The notes under the pieces are model-generated. The model did no database searches, had not been told where the DNA came from, and saw only the letters and a program-made list of their open reading frames with translations. From Dysgonomonadaceae bacterium zrk40 (lineage in GTDB: Bacteria > Bacteroidota > Bacteroidia > Bacteroidales > Dysgonomonadaceae), in NCBI GenBank assembly GCA_016916535.1, contig CP070276.1:434001-498000 (forward strand): 64,000 nucleotides of DNA, read 5' to 3'. Position 1 is the stretch's first letter. Each line of letters opens with the position of its first letter. Below are positions 46,012-58,207 of the stretch, one piece after another. A program made the translations under genes and the position numbers.

Positions 46012-47058
46012 TCAGTTGTTCTCCGGCCGCAACTTACGCACCACGGCGCCGGTCTGCCACATTTCGCTCTCACGAAGAGCTTTCAATTCTTCTTCCAGCT
46101 TCACGCGATAGTCGCTCTGTGAGTTGCTGTCGATGGAGCGCTGTGCCTCATTACCACTGGCAACCTCCTTGTAGAGCTTCTCGAATACCGGTTTGGTAGC
46201 ATCATGGAAGGGACCCATCCAGTCAAGGGCACCCCGCTGTGCGGTAGTAGAGCAGTTGGCGTACATCCAGTCCATTCCCTTCTCGGCGAAGAGCGGCATG
46301 AGCGACTGTGTCAACTCCTCTACCGTTTCGTTGAACGCCTCCGAGGGGGTGTGCCCGTTGGCACGCAGCACCTCATACTGTGCCAACAGCAATCCTTGGA
46401 TGGCACCCATCAGCGTACCACGTTCACCGGTCAGGTCGGAGTAGACCTCCCGCTTGAAGGTGGTCTCGAACAGGTATCCCGATCCCACGCCGATTCCGAG
46501 TGATACCACCCGTTCGTAGGCCTTGCCGGTAGCATCCTGGAAGATGGCATAGCTGGAATTGAGGCCACGTCCCTCGAGGAACATACGGCGAAGGCTGGTG
46601 CCCGATCCCTTGGGGGCCACCAGGATCACATCCACATCGGCGGGCGGCACGATGCCGGTACGCTCCTTGTAGGTGATTCCGAAGCCGTGGGAGAAGTAAA
46701 GTGCCTTGCCGGGCGTCAGGTGCTTCTTCACCGTGGGCCAGAGCGCAATCTGTGCCGCATCAGAAAGCAGGTATTGAATCACGGTGCCCTTCTCGCAGGC
46801 CTCTTCAATATCGAAGAGCGTCTCACCGGGGACCCATCCATCGGCCACTGCCTTGTCCCACGACTTGCTGTTCTTCCGTTGCCCCACGATCACGTTGAAG
46901 CCGTTGTCACGCAGGTTGAGCGACTGCCCCGGGCCCTGCACACCGTAACCGATCACTGCGATCGTCTCATCTTTCATCACCTGCTGAGCCTTGCTCAACG
47001 GAAACTCATCGCGGGTCACTACATTCTCTTCGACTCCGCCAAAATTCATTTTTGCCAT
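46012..47058 (-). CDS. ilvC: Ketol-acid reductoisomerase
   Basis: Converts acetolactate or acetohydroxybutyrate to the dihydroxy acids for valine, leucine and isoleucine. The 348-residue protein has the Rossmann motif AVIGYGVQGPGQ (about 31-42), the cofactor loop GQRKNSKSWDKA, VAPKGSGTSLRRMFLEGRG with the active-site region, and the knotted C-terminal domain with ERGTLMGAIQGL and the metal-binding glutamates (TVEELTQSLMP). Start at ATG 47058 (MAKMNFGGVEENV); the frame is open nine codons further. It is the last gene of the ilv-leu operon; a 161-bp spacer with heptamer repeats separates it from ilvN. Confidence 0.95.
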   Translation of the reverse strand: MAKMNFGGVEENVVTRDEFPLSKAQQVMKDETIAVIGYGVQGPGQSLNLRDNGFNVIVGQRKNSKSWDKAVADGWVPGETLFDIEEACEKGTVIQYLLSDAAQIALWPTVKKHLTPGKALYFSHGFGITYKERTGIVPPADVDVILVAPKGSGTSLRRMFLEGRGLNSSYAIFQDATGKAYERVVSLGIGVGSGYLFETTFKREVYSDLTGERGTLMGAIQGLLLAQYEVLRANGHTPSEAFNETVEELTQSLMPLFAEKGMDWMYANCSTTAQRGALDWMGPFHDATKPVFEKLYKEVASGNEAQRSIDSNSQSDYRVKLEEELKALRESEMWQTGAVVRKLRPENN

Positions 47059-47132
47059 ATTATTTATCTGATCTTTGTGCCTCACCGGCCTCCTCTTACC
47101 GGGGAGTTTCCGGATTGGCGAGTTAATTTTTT

Positions 47133-47219: not shown

Positions 47220-47783
47220 CTAACTTTTCAACTTATCCTGGTTGTCCTGTTCCCTCTTCGACAGCATATCGCTGAGCCGTTCCACCTTCGACTTGGTGAT
47301 GGCGATGCGGCCCGAGCGGACGAACTGCAGCACACCAATTGTGTCGGCCAGTTCATCAAAGAGTCCCTGCGTCTCCTCATAGTGTCCCGCCTTGAGGAAC
47401 ACCACACAATCGGTCGACACCTCAAGAATACGGACGTTGTACTTGCGCACGAGGTACTCGATGGAGCCATGCTCCAGCACCTTCTCGGTGGAGAGCTTGT
47501 AGAGCGCCAACTCCTGGTGCACCAGGTCCTCGTTGGTATTATAGTATGCTTTCAGGATGTCCACCCGCTTGTCGATCAGCGGTATCAGCTTCTTGATCAC
47601 CTCCTCGTTGTCGGAGAAGGTGGTGATGGTGAACTTGTGGATTCCCTTGATGGCCGAGGGAGAAACCGACAGTGTCTCGATGTTGAGTTGCCTCCGGGTG
47701 AAGATGGTTGTGATCTGGTTGAGCACCCCTACTGTGTTCTCCGAGAAAACGGTGATGGTATATAATGTCCTGTTTTCGCTCAT
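47220..47783 (-). CDS. ilvN: Acetolactate synthase small (regulatory) subunit
   Basis: Regulatory subunit of acetohydroxyacid synthase; its ACT domain binds valine and controls the large subunit. The 187-residue protein has an N-terminal ACT domain (LYTITVFSENTVGVLNQITTIFTRRQLNIETLSVSPS, about 5-42) and a C-terminal ACT-like domain (about 80-165: LYKLSTEKVLEHGSIEYLVRKYNVRILEVSTDCVVFLKAG). It follows ilvB with a 74-bp gap. It is closer in size to IlvH (about 160) plus a C-terminal extension of charged residues. Confidence 0.93.
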   Translation of the reverse strand: MSENRTLYTITVFSENTVGVLNQITTIFTRRQLNIETLSVSPSAIKGIHKFTITTFSDNEEVIKKLIPLIDKRVDILKAYYNTNEDLVHQELALYKLSTEKVLEHGSIEYLVRKYNVRILEVSTDCVVFLKAGHYEETQGLFDELADTIGVLQFVRSGRIAITKSKVERLSDMLSKREQDNQDKLKS

Positions 47784-47857: not shown

Positions 47858-49609
47858 TTACAGCTTATACCCATTTCCCAGCAGGATATTGGTGACACAT
47901 CCCCCCGAGGGTATCATGGGATAGACCATTCCCTTGGTCTCCACCACCACCTCCAGCAGGTAGGCACCCTTGTGCGACAGCATCTCATCGATGGCACCGT
48001 CCAGTTCCTCACGTTCGGTCACCTTGCACCCCCTGATGTTGTAGGCATCGGCGATCTTGATGAAATCGGGGTTCTTGAGGTGCGTCTCGGAGTAGCGCTC
48101 ATCAAAGAAGAGCTCCTGCCACTGGCGCACCATGCCCAGATAGTTGTTGTTGAGCAGGATGATCTTCACATCCACACCATACTCGAGGATGGTGCCGAAC
48201 TCCTGGATGGTCATTTGCAGGCCGCCGTCGCCTACGAAAATGCAGACGGTACGGTCGGGAGCCCCATACTTGGCACCGATGCCGGCAGGCAGGCCGAAGC
48301 CCATGGTACCCAGGCCACCCGAAGTAACGAGGCTGCGCGACTGGGTGTACTTGAAGTAACGGGTGCTCATCATCTGATGCTGCCCCACGTCGGTCACACA
48401 GATGGCGCTGTTGTGGGTTGCCTCCGTTACCTTGTTCACCACCTCGCCCATCTTGATGGGTCCCGTTTCAGGATAAAGCTCATTGCTGATTACTGTCTCA
48501 AACTCCTTCTTATCGAACGGTTTGAACTCCGCCCGCCACTCCTGGTGAGAGCCCTTTTGGAGGTACTCTGTCACTTTGGGCAGGGTCTGCTTCACGTCGC
48601 CCACCACCTTCACGGTTGTTTGTACGTTCTTGTTGATCTCCGCCGGGTCGATGTCGAAGTGGATCACCTTCGCCTGTTTGGCATAGGTCTTCAGGTCGCC
48701 CGTCACACGGTCGTCGAACCGCATCCCAATTGCGATCAGCACGTCGCACTCGTTGGTCTTCAGGTTGGGTGCCACGTTGCCATGCATGCCGAGCATGCCG
48801 CAATTGAGCGGATGGTTGGTAGGTACGGCCGACAGTCCCAGAATGGTTGATGCGAAAGGCACATCGGCCTTCTCCAGGAAGGCAACCAGCTCCTTTTCGG
48901 CATGCCCGAGAATCACACCCTGACCCACCAGGGCATAGGGCTTCTTGGCATTGTTGATTAGTTCGACAGCCAGGCGTATTCTTTCTTCATCCATTTCGGG
49001 TACAGGCTGGTAGCTCCGCAGGAACGATGTCTTCTGATAGTCGAAGATGCATTTGTTCACCTGCGTATCCTTGGCGATGTCGAGCACCACCGGCCCGGGG
49101 CGACCGCTGGCCGCGATGTGGAACGCGCGCGACACCGCCCAGGCGATATCCTCCACGCGGCGGATCTGGTAGGCCCACTTGGTGATGGGCTGGGTGATGC
49201 CGATCACATCGGCCTCCTGAAAGGCATCTGATCCCAGCAGGCTAGAGATCACCTGTCCCGAGATCACCACCAGCGGGGTGCTGTCCATCATGGCATCGGT
49301 GATGCCGGTGATGGCGTTGGTGGCACCGGGGCCCGAGGTGACAAGTGCCACCCCCACCTTGTCGGAGACACGTGCGTAGCCCTGTGCTGCGTGCACCGCC
49401 CCCTGTTCGTGGCGCACCAGGATATGTTTGATTCTCTCTTTGTGGTCGTACAGTGCATCGAACACGGGCATGATCGCCCCGCCCGGATAGCCGAAGATTG
49501 TCTCCACCCCTTCCGCCAGCAACGAGCGGATCAGGATCTCACTCCCCGAGATGGGTTGTGCTTCCGCGGAGGGGGAAACAATGGCTGGTGATTGATTGAC
49601 TTTGTTCAT
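47858..49609 (-). CDS. ilvB: Acetolactate synthase large (catalytic) subunit
   Basis: ThDP- and FAD-dependent enzyme that makes acetolactate from pyruvate, or acetohydroxybutyrate from pyruvate and 2-ketobutyrate. The 583-residue protein has the catalytic glutamate in RHEQGAVHAAQGYAR (about 64-78), the FAD domain (GMLGMHGNVAPN to IGMRFDDRVTGDL, about 260-300) and the ThDP motif GDGGLQMTIQEFGT...ILLNNNYLG (about 445-475). It lies between ilvD and ilvN in the operon. Confidence 0.95.
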   Translation of the reverse strand: MNKVNQSPAIVSPSAEAQPISGSEILIRSLLAEGVETIFGYPGGAIMPVFDALYDHKERIKHILVRHEQGAVHAAQGYARVSDKVGVALVTSGPGATNAITGITDAMMDSTPLVVISGQVISSLLGSDAFQEADVIGITQPITKWAYQIRRVEDIAWAVSRAFHIAASGRPGPVVLDIAKDTQVNKCIFDYQKTSFLRSYQPVPEMDEERIRLAVELINNAKKPYALVGQGVILGHAEKELVAFLEKADVPFASTILGLSAVPTNHPLNCGMLGMHGNVAPNLKTNECDVLIAIGMRFDDRVTGDLKTYAKQAKVIHFDIDPAEINKNVQTTVKVVGDVKQTLPKVTEYLQKGSHQEWRAEFKPFDKKEFETVISNELYPETGPIKMGEVVNKVTEATHNSAICVTDVGQHQMMSTRYFKYTQSRSLVTSGGLGTMGFGLPAGIGAKYGAPDRTVCIFVGDGGLQMTIQEFGTILEYGVDVKIILLNNNYLGMVRQWQELFFDERYSETHLKNPDFIKIADAYNIRGCKVTEREELDGAIDEMLSHKGAYLLEVVVETKGMVYPMIPSGGCVTNILLGNGYKL

Positions 49610-49650: not shown

Positions 49651-51510
49651 TTACACGATTCTGACTGCTCCCTTGTCGGCGGAGGTGACAAATGCCGCAT
49701 AGCTCCGCAGCGCCTTGGAGACGTTGCGCACACGATCGGGCCTGAAGGCTTCCGCCCCTTTGGCTTCCTCGTTGCGGCGCCGTTCGGCCAGCTCCTCATC
49801 GCTGATCATCACGTTAATGCTGCGTGCCGGGATATCAATCTCTATGAGATCGCCCTCACGTACCAGTCCGATGTTGCCGCCGGCTGCCGCCTCGGGCGAG
49901 ATATGGCCGATGGAGAGTCCCGAGGTACCGCCGGAGAAACGTCCGTCGGTGATCAGGGCACACTGTTCTCCCAGCTTTTTCGACTTGATGTAGGAGGTGG
50001 GATAAAGCATCTCCTGCATGCCGGGGCCGCCCTTGGGACCCTCGTATATGATCACCACCACGTGGCCTGCTTCTACGTCACCACGAAGAATCCCCCTCAC
50101 GGCATCATCCTGCGAGTGGAATACCTTTGCCCGGCCACTGAACTTCCAGATGCTCTCCTTCACCCCTGCGGTCTTCACCACGCAGCCGTCTGCAGCGATG
50201 TTGCCCCGCAGGATGGCCAGTCCCCCGTCCTTGGTGTAGGCATTTGCCACGGTGCGGATGCAGCCCCCCTCGCGGTCGCTGTCCAGCTCCCGGAAGCGTG
50301 CATCCTGCGAACCCATCACTAGGTTGCGACGGTTGCCCGGTGCCGAGGAGTAGATCCGCAGCGCTTCCGCATCGGGTGTTGCTTTTGTGATGTCATACTT
50401 GCTGATAGCCTCGGCTAGCGTCATGCCGTCGGCACGGCTCACATTGGTCTCCAGCAATCCCGCTTTGGCCAGCTCACCCAGGATGCCCATGATGCCGCCG
50501 GCGCGGTTCACATCCTGGATGTGGTATTTATCGGAGTTGGGGGCCACCTTGCAGATGCAGGGTACCCGCCGCGAAAGCGATTCGATGTCGTCGAGCGTGA
50601 AGTCGATCTCCCCCTCGTGGGCGATGGCCAGCGTGTGAAGGATGGTGTTTGTCGATCCCCCCATGGCGATATCGAGCGTCATGGCGTTGAGGAAGGAGTT
50701 GCGACAAGCGATGTTCCGGGGCAGCACGCTTTCGTCGCCATCGAAGTAATATTTGTAAGCGTTCTCCACGATCTGGCGGGCAGCATCCACGAAGAGCTGC
50801 TTCCGGTTCACGTGGGTGGCCAGCACCGTGCCGTTGCCCGGCAGCGCCAGGCCTATTGCCTCGTTGAGGCAGTTCATCGAGTTGGCGGTAAACATGCCGG
50901 AGCAGGAGCCACAGGTGGGACAGGCCAGCTCCTCGAGTTGTGATATCCGCTCGTCGGGGACATTCTCATCGGCCGATTCAATCATGGCGTCGATCAGGTC
51001 GATCTGCTGGTCGCCGATCTTACCAGCCTCCATCGGTCCCCCGGAGACGAAGATGGTAGGTATGTTGAGTCGCATCGCGGCCATCAGCATCCCCGGTGTG
51101 ATCTTGTCGCAGTTGCTGATGCAAACCAGCGCGTCTGCCTTGTGGGCGTTCACCATGTACTCCACCGAATCGGCAATCAGGTCGCGCGAAGGCAGCGAGT
51201 AGAGCATGCCGTCATGTCCCATGGCGATGCCGTCGTCCACGGCGATGGTGTTGAACTCGGCAGCGAAGCATCCCAGCTTCTCCACCTCCTGCTTCACCAG
51301 CTGACCGATGTCGTGCAGATGCACGTGTCCCGGTACGAACTGGGTAAAGGAGTTGGCGATGGCGATGATGGGCTTGCCCATCTGGCTACGAGTCATTCCA
51401 TTGGCATGCCAGAGCGCCCGTGCCCCGGCCATCAGTCGTCCCTGCGTGCTGGTCGCACTGCGCAGGTGGTCCTTCTTGCCCGTTGCTCCTGTATGATTGT
51501 TGTTGCTCAT
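49651..51510 (-). CDS. ilvD: Dihydroxy-acid dehydratase
   Basis: Iron-sulfur dehydratase making 2-ketoisovalerate or 2-keto-3-methylvalerate. The 619-residue protein has cluster cysteines in [12 protein letters not shown] (about 122), [18 protein letters not shown] (about 195-212) and an N-terminal [17 protein letters not shown]; the late [25 protein letters not shown] is the family signature. Length is normal. It starts 147 bp after leuB, a spacer made mostly of heptamer repeats, and ends 41 bp before ilvB. Confidence 0.95.
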
Positions 51511-51557
51511 TATACTATCCGTTGTTTGGTTGATGCGTTGGTACGTTGTTGTTTTTC

Positions 51558-51669
51558 GTTCTTGGTTTGAGGTTCTTTGTTTGACGTTCTTTGTTTGACG
51601 TTCTTTGTTTGACGTTCTTTGTTTGACGTTTGGAAACCGTGAACTGTGAACTTTGAACTATGAACCTTG
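51558..51669. repeat. Sixteen-unit 7-bp repeat in the leuB-ilvD spacer
   Basis: Ten units alternate GTTCTTT-like and GTTTGAC-like heptamers (51558-51627), one is GTTTGGA, and then five have the form AACNNTG (AACCGTG, AACTGTG, AACTTTG, AACTATG, AACCTTG; 51635-51669). The period is strictly 7 bp over 112 bp. The last units run past the leuB stop codon (51658-51660) into its final codons. Confidence 0.9.
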
Positions 51670-52731
51670 AACCAAATATTCCTTTATCCAGCTCCCTACC
51701 TCGCTGGTGCTGTATGCCTTGCCGCCGTCGGCAATATCCTCCGTGACGATGCCCGCTTCCATGCTGGCGTTTACAGCCTCGCGGATCATCGCACCTTCCT
51801 CCATCAGGGCGAAGCCATATTCGAACATCAGGGCGACCGAGAGGATCATCGCCAGGGGGTTGGCAATGTTCTTACCTGCAGCCTGCGGATAGGAGCCGTG
51901 TATCGGTTCGAAGAGCGAAGTGTGGATCCCCATTGAGGCGGAGGGGAGCAATCCCAGCGACCCGGTGATCACCGAGGCCTCGTCGGTGAGGATGTCGCCA
52001 AACAGGTTCTCGGTCACCAGCACGTCGAAGCTCTTCGGCCACTGGATGATGCGCATGGCGGCATTGTCCACGAAGAGGAAGTCGGTTTCGATGTCGGGGT
52101 ACTGAGGAGCGATCTCCTGGGCAATCTGGCGCCAGAGACGGGAGGTGGCAATCACGTTGGCCTTGTCCACCACCGTCAGCTTCTTGCGTCGTTGTCCGGC
52201 GAACTTGTAGGCCAGGTGGAGGATTCGTTCCACCTCCTCGCGGGTGTAGATGCAGGTGTCGTAGGCGGTGTTGCCATCCTCACTGCGTCCCTGCGGCTGT
52301 CCGAAGTACATGCCGCCGGTCAGCTCACGAATGCAGACGAAATCGGCACCCTCCACCAGGTCCGCCCGCAGGGGTGACTTGTGGATCAGCGAGGGAAAGG
52401 TCATCACGGGACGGATGTTGCCATAGAGGCCCAGCTGCTTGCGCATGCGGAGCAATCCCTGCTCGGGACGTACTTTCGCGTTGGGGTTGTTGTCATACTT
52501 CGGATCACCGATGGCGCCAAAGAGCACGGCATCGCTCTCCATGCAGAGGTTGTGAGTAGCCTCCGGGTAGGGATCACCTGTGGCATCGATGGCGAAGGCG
52601 CCCACGATTCCTTCCTTCAGTGAGAGTGTGTGTCCCTTCCTTGCACATACGGCTTTGGTCACCTCCAGTGCTTGCTCCATGATTTCCGGGCCTATTCCGT
52701 CGCCCGCCAGTACTGCTATCTTTAACTCCAT
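51658..52731 (-). CDS. leuB: 3-isopropylmalate dehydrogenase
   Basis: Oxidative decarboxylation of 3-isopropylmalate to 2-ketoisocaproate. The 357-residue protein has [11 protein letters not shown] (about 9-19), the [21 protein letters not shown] substrate loop, [15 protein letters not shown] (about 136), and the [46 protein letters not shown] block with metal-binding aspartates. [25 protein letters not shown] confirms the family. The same enzyme could work on 3-methylmalate in a citramalate route. The last codons (VQGS) lie in a heptamer repeat array. Confidence 0.95.
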
Positions 52732-52819: not shown

Positions 52820-54388
52820 TCACGGCAACTGCAAATAATTCATGTTGGGTATGTTCCCGTTCTCGATCATGTTCAGCATCTTCAATGTCGCCTTGATGGC
52901 CGCCACCGTCTGGTCGATATCGAGGGCACGGGTCTTGAATACCTTGCCGTCGAACTTCCATGTGATGATTGTCTGCACGTAAGCGTTGGTCTGGCCTCCG
53001 GGTGGGATTACCACTTCGTAGTCGATCAGCTCCGGTGTCTCCTTGTTCAGTTTGCGGTAGATCTTGTACATCGCCTTTGAGAATGCGTGGTACTGGCCAT
53101 CACCGGCAGCCGTCTCCTGGTAGATCTCACCTTTGATGCTGAGCTTCACCGTGGCGGTGGGTCGCAACCCGTCGGTCAGCGTGAGCGAGTAGTTCAGCAT
53201 CTGGATATCCTTGTTTTCGAGACCGTTCTTGAGCACATCGGAGACGATGTAGGGCAGCTCGTCCAGGTTCACGATCTCTTTCTTGTCGCCCAGTTCGATG
53301 ATGCGGGCTGTCACCTTGCGGGTGGACTCGTCGTCCAGTTCGATGCCCAGGGTCTCGAGGTTCTTGATGATGTTCGACTTGCCGGCGTTCTTGCCCAGGG
53401 CATACTCGCGGAATCGGCCGAAGCGCTCCGGCATCAGGTCGTTGTAGTATAGGTTTTTCTTCTTGTCGCCATCAGCATGGACACCAGCCACCTGCGTGAA
53501 GACATTGTCGCCGATGATGGGACGGTTTTTGGGTATTCGCACGCCCGAGTAGGTCTCCACCACCTTGCTTACGTTGTAGAGGTGCGACTCATCGATGCCG
53601 GTCTCCAGTTCCAGGTGGTCATGGATCAGCGCCACCACGCTGGTGAGCGGTGCGTTACCTGCACGTTCACCCAGACCGTTCACCGTGACATGTACCCCTT
53701 TCACACCCGCCTTGAGAGCATTGTATACGTTGGCTACCGCCAGGTCGTAGTCGTTGTGTGCATGAAAGTCGAAATGTAGCGACGGGTAGCGGGCAATCAT
53801 CTCGCTGCAGAACTGGTATGCCTCATCGGGGTTGAGCACCCCCAGCGTGTCGGGTAGCATGAAGCGGGTCACCGGCTCATCCTTGAGCCCGTCCATCATC
53901 TGGAAGACATACTCCTTCGAGTCGCGCATTCCGTTGGACCAGTCCTCCAGGTAGAGATTCACCGTCATCCCTTTCTCTTTCGCCATGGCGATTGTCTTCT
54001 TCACATCGGCCAGGTGTTCCTCCACCGTTTTGCGCAACTGCCAGGTGCAGTGCTTGAGCGACCCTTTGCAGAGCAGGTTCACCACACGACAGCCAGCATT
54101 GGAGATCCACTCGAGCGAAGTACCTCCATCTACGAAGCCGAGCACCTCCAGCCTGTCCAGGTAGCCGTGGGCGGCAGCCCACTTCGCCATCTTCTGTACC
54201 GAGCGGAACTCACCTTCCGAGACACGGGCTGAGGCGATCTCCACGCGGTCTACCTTCAGCTCTTCCAGCAGAAGGCTCACAACGCTCACCTTCTCCTGAG
54301 TTGCAAAGGATACACCGGAGGTCTGCTCCCCATCGCGAAGCGTGGTATCTATGATCTCTATTCTTCTCTTCTCAGCTACCGCTTTCAT
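52820..54388 (-). CDS. LeuA-like enzyme (candidate citramalate synthase)
   Basis: A 522-residue protein of the isopropylmalate/homocitrate/citramalate synthase superfamily: HMGL-like TIM barrel (about 8-290) with [20 protein letters not shown] (about 10-29), FHAHNDYDLAVANVYNALKAGVKGVHVTVNGLGERAGNAPL (metal-binding HxH, about 213-250), GVHADGDKK, and a C-terminal regulatory-type domain. It differs from the operon's standard LeuA (56487-57971) and was placed between leuD and leuB. Bacteroidota often carry this second gene in the same position. A citramalate synthase making isoleucine precursors from pyruvate is a plausible role, but isopropylmalate or homocitrate synthase cannot be excluded. 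Confidence 0.8.
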   Translation of the reverse strand: MKAVAEKRRIEIIDTTLRDGEQTSGVSFATQEKVSVVSLLLEELKVDRVEIASARVSEGEFRSVQKMAKWAAAHGYLDRLEVLGFVDGGTSLEWISNAGCRVVNLLCKGSLKHCTWQLRKTVEEHLADVKKTIAMAKEKGMTVNLYLEDWSNGMRDSKEYVFQMMDGLKDEPVTRFMLPDTLGVLNPDEAYQFCSEMIARYPSLHFDFHAHNDYDLAVANVYNALKAGVKGVHVTVNGLGERAGNAPLTSVVALIHDHLELETGIDESHLYNVSKVVETYSGVRIPKNRPIIGDNVFTQVAGVHADGDKKKNLYYNDLMPERFGRFREYALGKNAGKSNIIKNLETLGIELDDESTRKVTARIIELGDKKEIVNLDELPYIVSDVLKNGLENKDIQMLNYSLTLTDGLRPTATVKLSIKGEIYQETAAGDGQYHAFSKAMYKIYRKLNKETPELIDYEVVIPPGGQTNAYVQTIITWKFDGKVFKTRALDIDQTVAAIKATLKMLNMIENGNIPNMNYLQLP

Positions 54389-54399
54389 CTCATTTGGGA

Positions 54400-54996
54400 T
54401 TAGTAAGCATATGGGCGTTGCTGTTCATACGCCTCTATCTTGTCTTTGTTGGATAGGAGGAAGTCGATATCGTCGAGCCCCTTGAGCAGGCATTCCTTCT
54501 TGTAGGTGTTGATCTCGAACTGCTCGCGCTCACCCGTGGCGTTGTTGGTGATGGTCTGTTCTTCCAGGTTGACTGTGACGCTGCTTTTGGGATCGGCTTT
54601 CGAGGCATTGAAAAGACCACGCAGAAATGATTCGCTCACCACTACCGGCAGGATACCGTTGTTAAGGGCGTTGTTGCGGAAGATGTCGGCGAAGAAGCTC
54701 GATACCACCACCCTGAAGCCGTAGCCTCCAATGGCCCAGGCGGCATGCTCGCGGCTGCTGCCGCTACCGAAGTTCTTACCTGCCACCAGCACCTCACCGC
54801 TGTAGGTGGGGTCGTTCAGCACGAAGTCTGCCTTGGGGTTGCCCTCCTTGTCGTAGCGCCAGTCGGCGAAGAGGTTGTCGCCGAAGCCGTCGCGTGTGGT
54901 GGCCTTCAGGAAGCGGGCCGGGATGATCTGGTCGGTGTCCACGTTCTCAATTGGAAGTGGCACATATGTAGATGTGATTGTCTGAAACTTTTCCAT
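54400..54996 (-). CDS. leuD: 3-isopropylmalate dehydratase small subunit
   Basis: Forms, with LeuC, the isomerase that converts 2- to 3-isopropylmalate. The 198-residue protein has the swivelling-domain motifs [14 protein letters not shown] (about 18-31) and [46 protein letters not shown] (about 73-117). Length is normal for LeuD. It ends 11 bp before the LeuA-like gene, indicating tight coupling; leuC is 54 bp upstream. Confidence 0.95.
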
Positions 54997-55050: not shown

Positions 55051-56433
55051 TTAAGGCTGTGTGATTTTGCCATTTACCGCCGCTGCGGCCGCCACCAGCG
55101 GTCCTGCCAGGATGGTGCGTGCACCGGGACCCTGTCGTCCTTCGAAGTTGCGGTTGGAGGTGGAGACGGCGTACTTGCCGGCGGGCACCTTGTCATCGTT
55201 CATGGCCAGACAGGCGGAGCAGCCCGGTTGGCGAAGTGCGAAGCCGGCCTCTTCCAGTATCTTGTCGAGACCCTCGGCCTCGATCTGCTTGCGCACCTGC
55301 CAACTTCCCGGTACCAGCCAGGCAGTCACGTTGTCCGCCTTTTTTCTGCCCTTCACGTAGTCGGCGAAGACGCGGAAGTCCTCAATGCGGCCGTTGGTGC
55401 AGCTGCCCAGGAAGACATAATCGATCTGCTTCCCTTCCAGCTTCTCTCCCGGCTCGAAGCCCATGTAGCGGAGCGACTTCTCGAAGGAGATCTGTCCCGC
55501 CTCATCTATCTCGTCGAGTGTAGGTATGGTGCCGTCGATCGGCATCCCCATACCGGGGTTGGTGCCATAGGTGATCATCGGCTTGATTTGTGATACGTCG
55601 AAGGTCACCTCCTTGTCGAATTGTGCTCCCTCATCGGTATGCAGCGTCTGCCAGTAGGCCATGGCCTCCTCCCAGCGCTCACCCTTGGGTGCAAACTCAC
55701 GACCGCGGATGTAGTTGAAGGTGGTCTCATCGGGTGCCACCAGTCCCCCGCGGGCACCCATCTCGATGCTCAAGTTACAGAGTGTCATCCTTTCCTCCAT
55801 GGTGAGGTTGCGCACTGCCTCACCTGCATACTCCACGAAGTACCCGGTGGCACCGCCGGTGGTGAGCTGTGAGATCATGTAGAGCGCCATATCCTTGGCA
55901 CTGACATGCTCGTTCAGTTTCCCCTCGAAATTGATCCGCATGGTTTTCGGTCTGGTTTGCAGGATACACTGTGATGCCAGCACCATCTCCACCTCGCTGG
56001 TGCCGATACCGAAGGCGATGGCCCCGAAGGCACCGTGCGTGGAGGTGTGGCTGTCGCCGCAGACGATGGTCATCCCCGGCTGGGTGTAACCGTTCTCGGG
56101 ACCGATTACATGGACGATGCCGTTCTTCGGGTTGTTGAGGCCATAGTAGGTGAGCTTGTAGTCACGGGCGTTCTTCGCCAGCGTGTCTACCTGAAAGCGC
56201 GAGATCTGGTCGCGGATGGGCTGATCCTGTCCCATGGTGGGGATGTTGTGGTCCGCCGTGAGCGTGGTCTGCTCCGGGCGGTAGACGCTCAATCCCCGGT
56301 TGCGGAGACCGGCGAATGCCTGTGGACTGGTAACTTCGTGACAGAGATGTCTATCAATGTATAATTGCGTGGGACCATCCTGCACGGTGGTCACCACGTG
56401 CGCATCCCAGATTTTGTCGAAAAGAGTCTTCAT
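55051..56433 (-). CDS. leuC: 3-isopropylmalate dehydratase large subunit
   Basis: Aconitase-type [4Fe-4S] subunit of isopropylmalate isomerase. The 460-residue protein has [26 protein letters not shown] (about 125-150), the first cluster cysteine in [15 protein letters not shown] (about 344) and the paired cysteines in [12 protein letters not shown] (about 402-408), plus [22 protein letters not shown]. All three cluster ligands are present. It is the second gene of the operon, 53 bp after leuA. The spacer carries an 8-bp step repeat (GTTGATTT, 56438-56461). Confidence 0.95.
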
Positions 56434-56486: not shown

Positions 56487-57971
56487 TTACCCAAACTTAT
56501 TTACTGCATCGATGAATGCCTCCACCGAGGCAGCCACGATATCAGTGTTGGCGGCGAAACCGTAGTATAGGTTGCCATTGTGTTCCACCTGCATGTGCAC
56601 CTTACCGATGTCATCACTGCCGTGGTCGATGGCCTGGATCAGAAACTCCTGGATCTTTATTTTTCTTTTGATGATGTTCTTCACCGCACGGATGGCCGCA
56701 TCCACGGGACCATTGCCACTGGCAGTGGCTTCGAATCGCTCACCGGAGATGTTGAGGCAGAGGCTCGCCACATCGCGTACGCCGATGCCACAGATCACCT
56801 GCAGGTACTCCACCTTGATGCGGTGAAGGCGTGACTCCCTGCCTACCAGCATCAGGACATCGTCGTCGTTCACGTTCTTCTTCTTGTCCGCCAGCTCGAG
56901 GAACTGCTGGTACACCTTGTCCAGCTCCTCCGATTCCAGCTTCACACCCAGCAGGTTGAGGCGGTTCTTCAGGGCAGCGCGGCCGCTGCGGGCGGTCAGC
57001 ACAATGGCGTTGTCGTCGATGCCCACATCCTTGGGGTTGATGATCTCATAGGTCTCCACGTTCTTCAGTACCCCGTCCTGGTGGATACCGGAGGAGTGTG
57101 CGAAGGCGTTGCGTCCTACGATCGCCTTGTTGGGCTGTACCGGCATGTTCATCAGGCTGGATACCATGCGGCTCGTGGAGTAGATGTGCTGCGTGTTGAT
57201 GTTGGTATCGAAACCGCGGTCCTTGTGACTCTTGAGCGCCATCACCACCTCTTCGAGCGAAGTGTTACCGGCCCGTTCGCCAATGCCGTTGATGGTCACC
57301 TCCACCTGACGGGCCCCGTTGATCACACCCGAAAGGGTGTTGGCGGTGGCCATGCCCAGGTCCTGGTGGCAGTGGGTGGAGAGGATCGCATTCTTCATGT
57401 CGACGTTGTTGACAAGGTAGCTGATCTTGGCTCCATACTCATCCGGGAAGCAGTAGCCGGTGGTGTCGGGGATGTTCACCACGGTAGCACCGGCGTTCAC
57501 AACCTCCTGCACCACGCGGGCCAGGTACTCATTGTCAGTGCGTCCCGCATCCTCCGCATAGAACTCTACATCATCCACGAAACGGCGGGCATACTTCACA
57601 GCCTTCACCGCCCGCTCGATGATCTCCTCGCGGTTGGAGTTGAACTTATACTTGATATGGCTGTCGGAGGTGCCGATGCCTGTGTGGATTCTTTTCCGCT
57701 TGGCATACTTGAGCGACTCGGCAGCCACCTCGATATCCTTCTCCACGGCGCGGGTCAGCGCGCAGATGGTGGGCCAGGTCACTGCCTTGGAGATCTCCAC
57801 CACCGAGTTGAAATCACCCGGGCTCGATACCGGGAAGCCGGCTTCTATCACATCCACCCCCAGCAGCTCCAGCGCCTGTGCGATCTGGATCTTCTCAATG
57901 GTGTTCAGCTGACAGCCGGGAACCTGTTCCCCGTCTCTTAAAGTGGTGTCAAAAATAAAAATGCGTTCCAT
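56487..57971 (-). CDS. leuA: 2-isopropylmalate synthase
   Basis: Condenses 2-ketoisovalerate with acetyl-CoA, the first committed step of leucine synthesis. The 494-residue protein has [17 protein letters not shown] (about 7-23), [44 protein letters not shown] (metal-binding HxH, about 199-242), and the [12 protein letters not shown] region. A C-terminal regulatory LeuA dimer domain (about 390-490) is present, so leucine feedback is possible. It is the first structural gene of the operon and lies directly after a leader peptide and terminator (58002-58143). Confidence 0.95.
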
Positions 57972-58001: not shown

Positions 58002-58034
58002 AAAAAAAAACCTTTCTCACCGGGTGAGAAAGGT
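58002..58034 (-). terminator. Attenuator terminator upstream of leuA
   Basis: On the minus strand ACCTTTCTCAC (58024-58034), loop CCG, GTGAGAAAGGT (58010-58020), followed by a T-run: a perfect 11-bp stem with no gene before it except the 20-codon leader. It would stop transcription 30 bp before leuA. Its first arm can alternatively pair with the leader stop region (58079-58086). Confidence 0.92.
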
Positions 58035-58078
58035 CATCTTATTTTTTATCTGCGTCAGTATACGATATGATATGCCAG

Positions 58079-58086
58079 TCTCACCC
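58079..58086 (-). promoter_or_regulatory. Antiterminator arm of the ilv-leu leader
   Basis: GGGTGAGA on the minus strand, spanning the leader stop codon, is perfectly complementary to TCTCACCC (58022-58029), the first arm of the terminator. The upstream CTTCTGGAAG can pair with CTTCAGAG just before it, giving the usual alternative pause hairpin. Confidence 0.75.
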
Positions 58087-58143
58087 TCTGAAGTCTTCCA
58101 GAAGTAGAATAGAAATGACTAGAATATCAATATTGCGGATCAT
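58081..58143 (-). CDS. Branched-chain amino acid leader peptide of the ilv-leu operon
   Basis: A 20-codon reading frame, ATG at 58143 to TGA at 58081-58083. Ten residues are branched-chain (five Ile, four Leu, one Val), including the run ILVISILLL at codons 7-15. Codons include CTA twice and CTT, which look uncommon beside the CTG/CTC preference of nearby genes. It is followed by the antiterminator/terminator structures and lies about 30 nt after the predicted transcription start. This is the hallmark of ribosome-mediated attenuation: stalling on Ile, Leu or Val codons lets the antiterminator form. It is too short for standard gene calling. Confidence 0.85.
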   Translation of the reverse strand: MIRNIDILVISILLLEDFRG

Positions 58144-58176
58144 ACGACAGTTTCAATTTTTCTTGTTTGATGGTTG

Positions 58177-58207
58177 CAAAGTAAAGCCAAATAAATGAAC
58201 CGGCAAA
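58177..58207 (-). promoter_or_regulatory. Promoter of the ilv-leu operon
   Basis: On the minus strand TTTG (58204-58207), 19 nt, then TTACTTTG (58177-58184), which is one mismatch from TAnnTTTG. The spacing is that reported for Bacteroidota promoters. Transcription should start near 58170, leaving the leader peptide start about 30 nt downstream. A palindrome (58205-58224) overlaps the -33 element. Confidence 0.72.

Follow-up and report, generated by a model that had tools for sequence, protein, structure and literature searches.

The window, i.e. the whole 64-kb stretch of DNA that was analyzed, carries nine same-strand genes running from leuA to ilvC (57971-46012, minus strand). Upstream of leuA lie a short Ile/Leu-rich reading frame and an intrinsic terminator. 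The features of the locus are:

58177-58184, minus strand: putative promoter element TTACTTTG, which departs from TAnnTTTG at one position and lies 33 nt upstream of the leader start codon (motif search)
58081-58143, minus strand: leader peptide frame MIRNIDILVISILLLEDFRG with stop codon TGA (sequence, conservation in relatives)
58117-58128, minus strand: segment 1, GATATTCTAGTC, codons 6-9, predicted partner of 58069-58080 when no ribosome is present (fold, shuffles)
58085-58104, minus strand: small hairpin CUUCUGGA/UUCAGAGG, the third pairing of an earlier sequence-only reading (fold)
58079-58086, minus strand: segment 2, GGGTGAGA, which includes the stop codon of the leader, 5' strand of the antiterminator (complementarity, covariation)
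58069-58080, minus strand: segment 2', GACTGGCATATC, 3' side of the predicted protector hairpin (fold, shuffles)
58022-58029, minus strand: segment 3, TCTCACCC, 3' strand of the antiterminator and inner 5' arm of the terminator (complementarity, covariation)
58009-58035, minus strand: intrinsic terminator stem-loop, with T-run at 58010-58002 (sequence, fold, covariation)
56487-57971, minus strand: leuA (TIGR00973 above cut-off)
55051-56433, minus strand: leuC (profile match)
54400-54996, minus strand: leuD (profile match)
52820-54388, minus strand: LeuA/citramalate-synthase-like gene (best NCBIfam match the CimA model, 656.7 bits, below the cut-off of 950)
51658-52731, minus strand: leuB (profile match)
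49651-51510, minus strand: ilvD (profile match)
47858-49609, minus strand: ilvB (profile match)
47220-47783, minus strand: ilvN (Pfam only)
46012-47085, minus strand: ilvC, listed from GTG (profile match)

LeuA of the window genome is 96% identical to LeuA of a Proteiniphilum MAG. The gap between leuB and ilvD (51511-51657, minus strand) contains several head-to-tail copies of about AACGTCAAACAAAG.

The minus-strand sequence 58143-58081 encodes MIRNIDILVISILLLEDFRG from an ATG at 58143-58141 to a TGA stop at 58083-58081. Its 20 codons include five for Ile, four for Leu and one for Val, so that the sequence-only reading, which had described a 20-codon frame with 10 branched-chain residues (10/20 codons I/L/V), was right in content and coordinates. 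At least 50% I/L/V is reached by only two of the 514 ATG frames of 15-30 amino acids in the 64-kb window, one of which is the leader. The 171-nt leader folds better than 200/200 dinucleotide shuffles (z -3.4). For comparison, the best 80 LeuA matches among the matches listed, from named genomes, were taken as relatives, which together with the window gives 81 loci. A combined score for an I/L/V-rich frame followed by a terminator was at least 37 in 60/81 of these leuA upstream regions vs 1/405 dinucleotide shuffles. Chance is thus ruled out as the source of a leader and terminator before leuA.

The complete element, consisting of the Ile/Leu-rich frame, the terminator and, where the frame ends, a complementary strand, is present at 69/81 leuA loci (best 80 relatives plus the window), a count that includes elements set by hand in L008 and L053 and frames set by hand in L041 and L020. 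Carriers include entries of Bacteroides, Phocaeicola, Parabacteroides, Prevotella, Dysgonomonas and Tannerella. The element is absent from L021, L030, L033, L044, L055, L056, L063, L066, L069, L079, L081 and L082. An operon without such a leader had been named beforehand as a case that would speak against the attenuator; it does occur, in this minority only (12/81), as expected for loss or replacement. By eye, ilvC apparently lies directly upstream of leuA in L021. In L056 and L063, two Salinivirgaceae MAGs, leuA is preceded by a different Leu-rich frame that ends in LLLLLSLRLRRR or LLLSLSLSLRLRRR and has the hairpin GCGCTTCTACGCGAAGTGC behind it; this is perhaps another kind of Leu leader.

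Upstream of the leader frames an exact TAnnTTTG motif, which we take to be the Bacteroidota -7 consensus, was found in 60/68 leaders at a distance of 10-70 nt upstream of the ATG (3.8 expected by shuffling; median distance 25 nt). Between the terminator and leuA the exact motif occurs in 3/68.

Two mutually exclusive structures can be drawn from the leader RNA, as segment 3 is common to both. The terminator (58035-58009, T-run 58010-58002) ends 37 nt upstream of the leuA start at 57971, in agreement with its earlier description as standing directly before leuA. The antiterminator pairs GGGTGAGA (58086-58079) with TCTCACCC (58029-58022), and the 8/8 match previously noticed between the leader-stop region and the terminator arm is confirmed. 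A third pairing, CTTCTGGAAG, had been proposed as the protector hairpin. It is present in the fold of the window (58104-58097 with 58092-58085), but most of the antiterminator strand lies outside it and, judged by eye in the alignment, only some of the seven closest sequences keep it. As sole protector it was dropped in favor of the longer pairing of segment 1 with segment 2' (58128-58117 with 58080-58069), which is predicted in the window fold, beats shuffles (<=5/100) in 36/69 loci and is the better-supported candidate for the protector hairpin.

The sequence-only reading had proposed an alignment of the leuA upstream regions of related Bacteroidales; across these relatives the Ile/Leu-rich frame is conserved and both terminator and antiterminator covary. 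In a first alignment, based on sequence only and comprising 66/69 elements (L028, L062 and L065 were omitted as near-copies), 85.5% of the antiterminator cells are paired and double changes occur in 8/9 pairs. The covariation score was reached by no shuffle, a control that is inflated by the relatedness of the sequences for antiterminator and terminator alike, and a slid partner gave 42-57% paired cells. A second alignment of 60/69 elements gave 90.5% paired cells and double changes in 7/9 pairs, with the slid controls across both alignments at 41-57%. The terminator is paired in 91.2% of cells, with double changes in 8/11 pairs. As an example of covariation, the Bacteroides form GGAAGTGAG/CTCACTTCC is replaced by GGGTGAGA/TCTCACCC in the window. 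Tested singly, the antiterminator duplex beats shuffles (<=3/60) in 48/69 loci, which leaves 21 loci unconvincing on their own.

The position of these segments relative to the frame was analyzed with an assumed ribosome footprint of -18 to +12/13, the downstream edge lying 12 nt from the A-site codon. On this assumption segment 2 would remain accessible during a stall at 565/594 Ile/Leu codons of the 69 loci. In 67/69 loci, the footprint of a ribosome that has reached the stop codon overlaps segment 2. When the RNA left free by a ribosome stalled at Leu codon 14 of the window leader is folded, the lowest-energy structure is the antiterminator (-24.0 kcal/mol), even if the terminator arm has already been synthesized. 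With the ribosome at the stop, the free RNA of the window forms the terminator. In the fold without a ribosome, the terminator is likewise formed, together with the pairing of 58128-58117 and 58080-58069.

The following course of events is proposed. Transcription would start near 58170, and RNA polymerase would then make the leader, whose frame is presumably translated. With sufficient Ile-tRNA and Leu-tRNA the ribosome would reach the stop at 58083-58081 and cover segment 2 (58086-58079); segment 3 would then pair with segment 4 to form the terminator, and transcription would end near 58002. If charged Ile- or Leu-tRNA is short, the ribosome would stall at an upstream Ile or Leu codon and leave segment 2 free, the 2:3 antiterminator would form, and read-through would allow transcription of leuA and the genes that follow. 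Without a ribosome, segment 1 (58128-58117) would pair with 58080-58069, again allowing the terminator to form. The element before leuA is very probably a ribosome-mediated (leader-peptide) transcription attenuator, as first read. Frame conservation, covariation of terminator and antiterminator and the stalling geometry in relatives support this reading, and together with the pairings and the conserved promoter motif they are established from sequence and comparison.

The amino acids sensed were assessed from the codons of the leaders. Among the 1620 codons of the 69 leuA leaders 18.4% encode Ile, 18.3% Leu and 4.7% Val, and the leuA genes themselves contain more Val than the leaders (9.0%, 3087/34192). 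Particular codons are also favored. CTA accounts for 100/296 Leu codons in leaders vs 41/2239 in leuA genes, and ATT for 233/298 Ile codons in leaders vs 1089/3053 in leuA genes. Since Ile and Leu are common and Val is not enriched, Ile and Leu are likely to be the signals of the leuA leader, with Val marginal in the window. The earlier claim that one leader senses Ile, Leu and Val together is therefore not fully supported, Val being represented by a single codon here. L008, which is closely related and likewise has the leu genes followed by the ilv genes, has no Val codon in its leader, compared with one in the window.

The idea that fusion of leu and ilv genes brought Val codons to the leuA leader was set aside, finding no clear support in the Val counts. 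In G000 (the window genome) and G230, where ilvD lies behind leuA, the leader contains a single Val codon (GTC), and L004, L005, L006 and L008 have 1, 1, 3 and 0, their leu-then-ilv order being taken from coordinates and the same contig being presumed. This comparison covers one clade, and the GTC also lies within a pairing; the contig of L003 is too short to judge, and L007 seemingly lacks that order.

A covariance model built from the leuA leaders (R1) matched 91/295 genomes of Bacteroidales at E 0.001, and 48/395 genomes in the phylum, mostly weakly. Positions were scored in 77 genomes, namely 75 of the 91 matched genomes together with G684 and G582; 16 genomes with weak matches only and opposite-strand echoes (by eye) were omitted. 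The 111 matches in these genomes comprise 48 before leuA, 51 before ilvD and 12 elsewhere. With frames picked by one rule, the leaders contain on average 0.48 Val codons before leuA (n=48) vs 4.04 before ilvD (n=51), a difference with a Mann-Whitney p of 1.6e-15, uncorrected for kinship. At least three Val codons are present in 0/48 leuA leaders and in 42/51 ilvD leaders, and two ilvD leaders have none. Where a genome has both leaders (n=27), the ilvD leader is richer in Val in 26 and equal in one. The antiterminator logic of the leuA elements recurs in 36/49 scored ilvD elements (49 of the 51 were scored). In clusters with ilvD before leuA, the ilvD leader has codons for Ile, Leu and Val.

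Further leaders were observed beside these. Tandem leader-peptide attenuators stand before ilvD in joined ilv-leu clusters of two genomes (L184, G216:C68:23745-24066; L185, G106:C25:18269-18545), with Ile, Leu and Val codons in each. L186 (G549) has two attenuators before ilvE, of which the one read is Ile-rich; leaders with matching codons precede ilvE in G148 and G549. In the window genome a trpB leader MTNLLMNGYWWRCLQLTRS with two Trp codons was observed (L085/L223, G000:C1:1500122-1500283, minus strand), at which RF01692 (Bacteroid-trp) scores 48.4 bits, below the cut-off of 49. A Phe/Tyr leader frame, VNSSSFAYSFWFYFYFSR, starting from GTG and followed by a hairpin with a T-run, lies before the prephenate dehydratase gene of the same genome (L268, upstream of G000:C1:1863325, plus strand); the gene scores 200 bits to NF008865 (cut-off 219). 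Among the 19 of 27 pheA loci taken, each of the 18 with upstream DNA has a leader with 6-12 Phe/Tyr codons. Six Asn codons are present in the leader frames before asnB in L224 (G058), L225 (G257) and L235 (G164), e.g. MFILNNFNLLINNNPFER and MYLLNNNNLFNYNPFQW, and a terminator comes after the frame; such an Asn-codon leader occurs in 3/12 asnB loci examined (12 of 17 asnB loci were taken). To our knowledge no Asn leader attenuator has been described.

We lean slightly towards a phylum-level attenuation regulon in Bacteroidota as the explanation of these leaders together. It would comprise homologous leaders of leuA and ilvD (and some of ilvB or ilvE), with codons retuned as operons split and join and with tandem attenuators before some joined operons, in addition to Phe/Tyr leaders of pheA, Trp leaders of trpB and, in one lineage, Asn leaders of asnB. 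If true, such a regulon needs tight coupling of transcription and translation. Translation start in Bacteroidota is said to be mostly without Shine-Dalgarno sequences.

The R1 search of the window genome gave only one strong match, at leuA. One leader may therefore serve the leu and ilv genes, and control would extend to all nine genes. However, control of the whole 12-kb operon, as claimed by the sequence-only reading, is not fully supported, as a promoter-like TATTTTTG stands before leuB. This exact TAnnTTTG motif (52769-52762, minus strand) is a possible internal promoter, from which leuB and the ilv genes might be transcribed, leaving a real attenuator to govern only leuA, leuC, leuD and the LeuA-like gene. 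The intergenic distances, 147 nt ahead of ilvD and 134-155 nt ahead of ilvC, are compatible with this division, as is the location of ilvD elsewhere with its own leader in many relatives. On the other hand, the motif is short and was sought in eight gaps, no minus-strand terminator was found inside the operon, and a second R1 element before ilvD was not detected in the window genome at E 1. We regard a separate promoter for leuB and the ilv genes as a tentative, rather unlikely alternative to nine-gene control by the leader.

The terminator could also be switched by an aptamer for a small molecule, by a protein or by a tRNA sensor of the T-box type, with the frame incidental or secondary. The terminator and antiterminator pairings alone would suit any such device, and the conserved sequence is partly non-codon. 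However, at Rfam gathering thresholds only a tRNA passes in the window, and no attenuator, T-box or riboswitch family does; in 8 relatives, likewise, no family reaches threshold at the leuA element. A permissive threshold returned below-threshold matches only, e.g. Phe_leader with 19.1 bits vs 55. The enrichment of CTA and ATT among the leader codons also argues against a switch that ignores the frame. Moreover, Val codons vary with the operon products between leuA and ilvD elements, which is explained only by a codon-reading device. A switch of this type is thus very improbable. Still less credible is a reading in which the frame encodes a functional small hydrophobic protein and the terminator acts simply as such or as an insulator. 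The peptides are indeed hydrophobic and of conserved length, but their sequences vary between genera with mainly Ile/Leu content in common, and a segment 2 that is located at the stop in 67/69 loci and pairs with the terminator has no reason in a protein.

Leader-peptide attenuation before leuA, as preferred here, would provide a clear and testable rule by which gut and environmental Bacteroidales may adjust the synthesis of three essential amino acids. The leaders of leuA and ilvD, which differ mainly in Val codons, show that codon choice follows operon content, and offer a ready set of natural variants. Since an attenuator works only if the ribosome keeps pace with RNA polymerase, the leaders also lend themselves naturally to probing how transcription and translation are coupled in this phylum.

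Leader-peptide systems have been described in several other contexts. The Bacteroid-trp RNA (RF01692), which Weinberg et al. 2010 (PMC2864571) list for Bacteroidetes, shares the phylum with the leuA element; the operon and codons differ, and the leuA element has no RF01692 match. Attenuators with ilv leaders are reported from Corynebacterium and other Actinobacteria, and a Leu-rich attenuator peptide from the ilv-leu operon of Staphylococcus aureus. These likewise place a peptide with branched-chain codons ahead of the ilv genes; they belong to other phyla and presumably have unrelated sequences. For B. thetaiotaomicron 5' UTRs, a Bacteroides transcriptome paper (PMC7366714) mentions short frames 'reminiscent of leader peptides' and names BT_4401, not leuA or ilvD. 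Naville and Gautheret 2010 (PMC2965389) state that, to their knowledge, no leader-peptide system had been shown outside Proteobacteria and Actinobacteria. On that statement the Bacteroidota are a real extension, unless it has already been made by later papers. A Bacteroidota ilv or leu attenuator was not found in the literature searched, which covers only a minority of subscription journals. By its sequence features, the element in the window is classical leader-peptide attenuation in a phylum for which neither an ilv/leu example in that literature nor an Rfam family was found.

The leu, ilvGMEDA and ilvB operons of enterobacteria are controlled by leader-peptide attenuators. The leuA element resembles these in its short frame with regulatory codons, in the intrinsic terminator before the first structural gene and in the mutually exclusive formation of antiterminator and terminator. 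It differs from them in lacking Rfam sequence similarity (Leu_leader is not matched) and in its architecture, as the antiterminator strand of the window is positioned at the leader stop, mostly outside the protector strand. In contrast to the enterobacterial systems, the window has one element that may serve the leu and ilv genes together.
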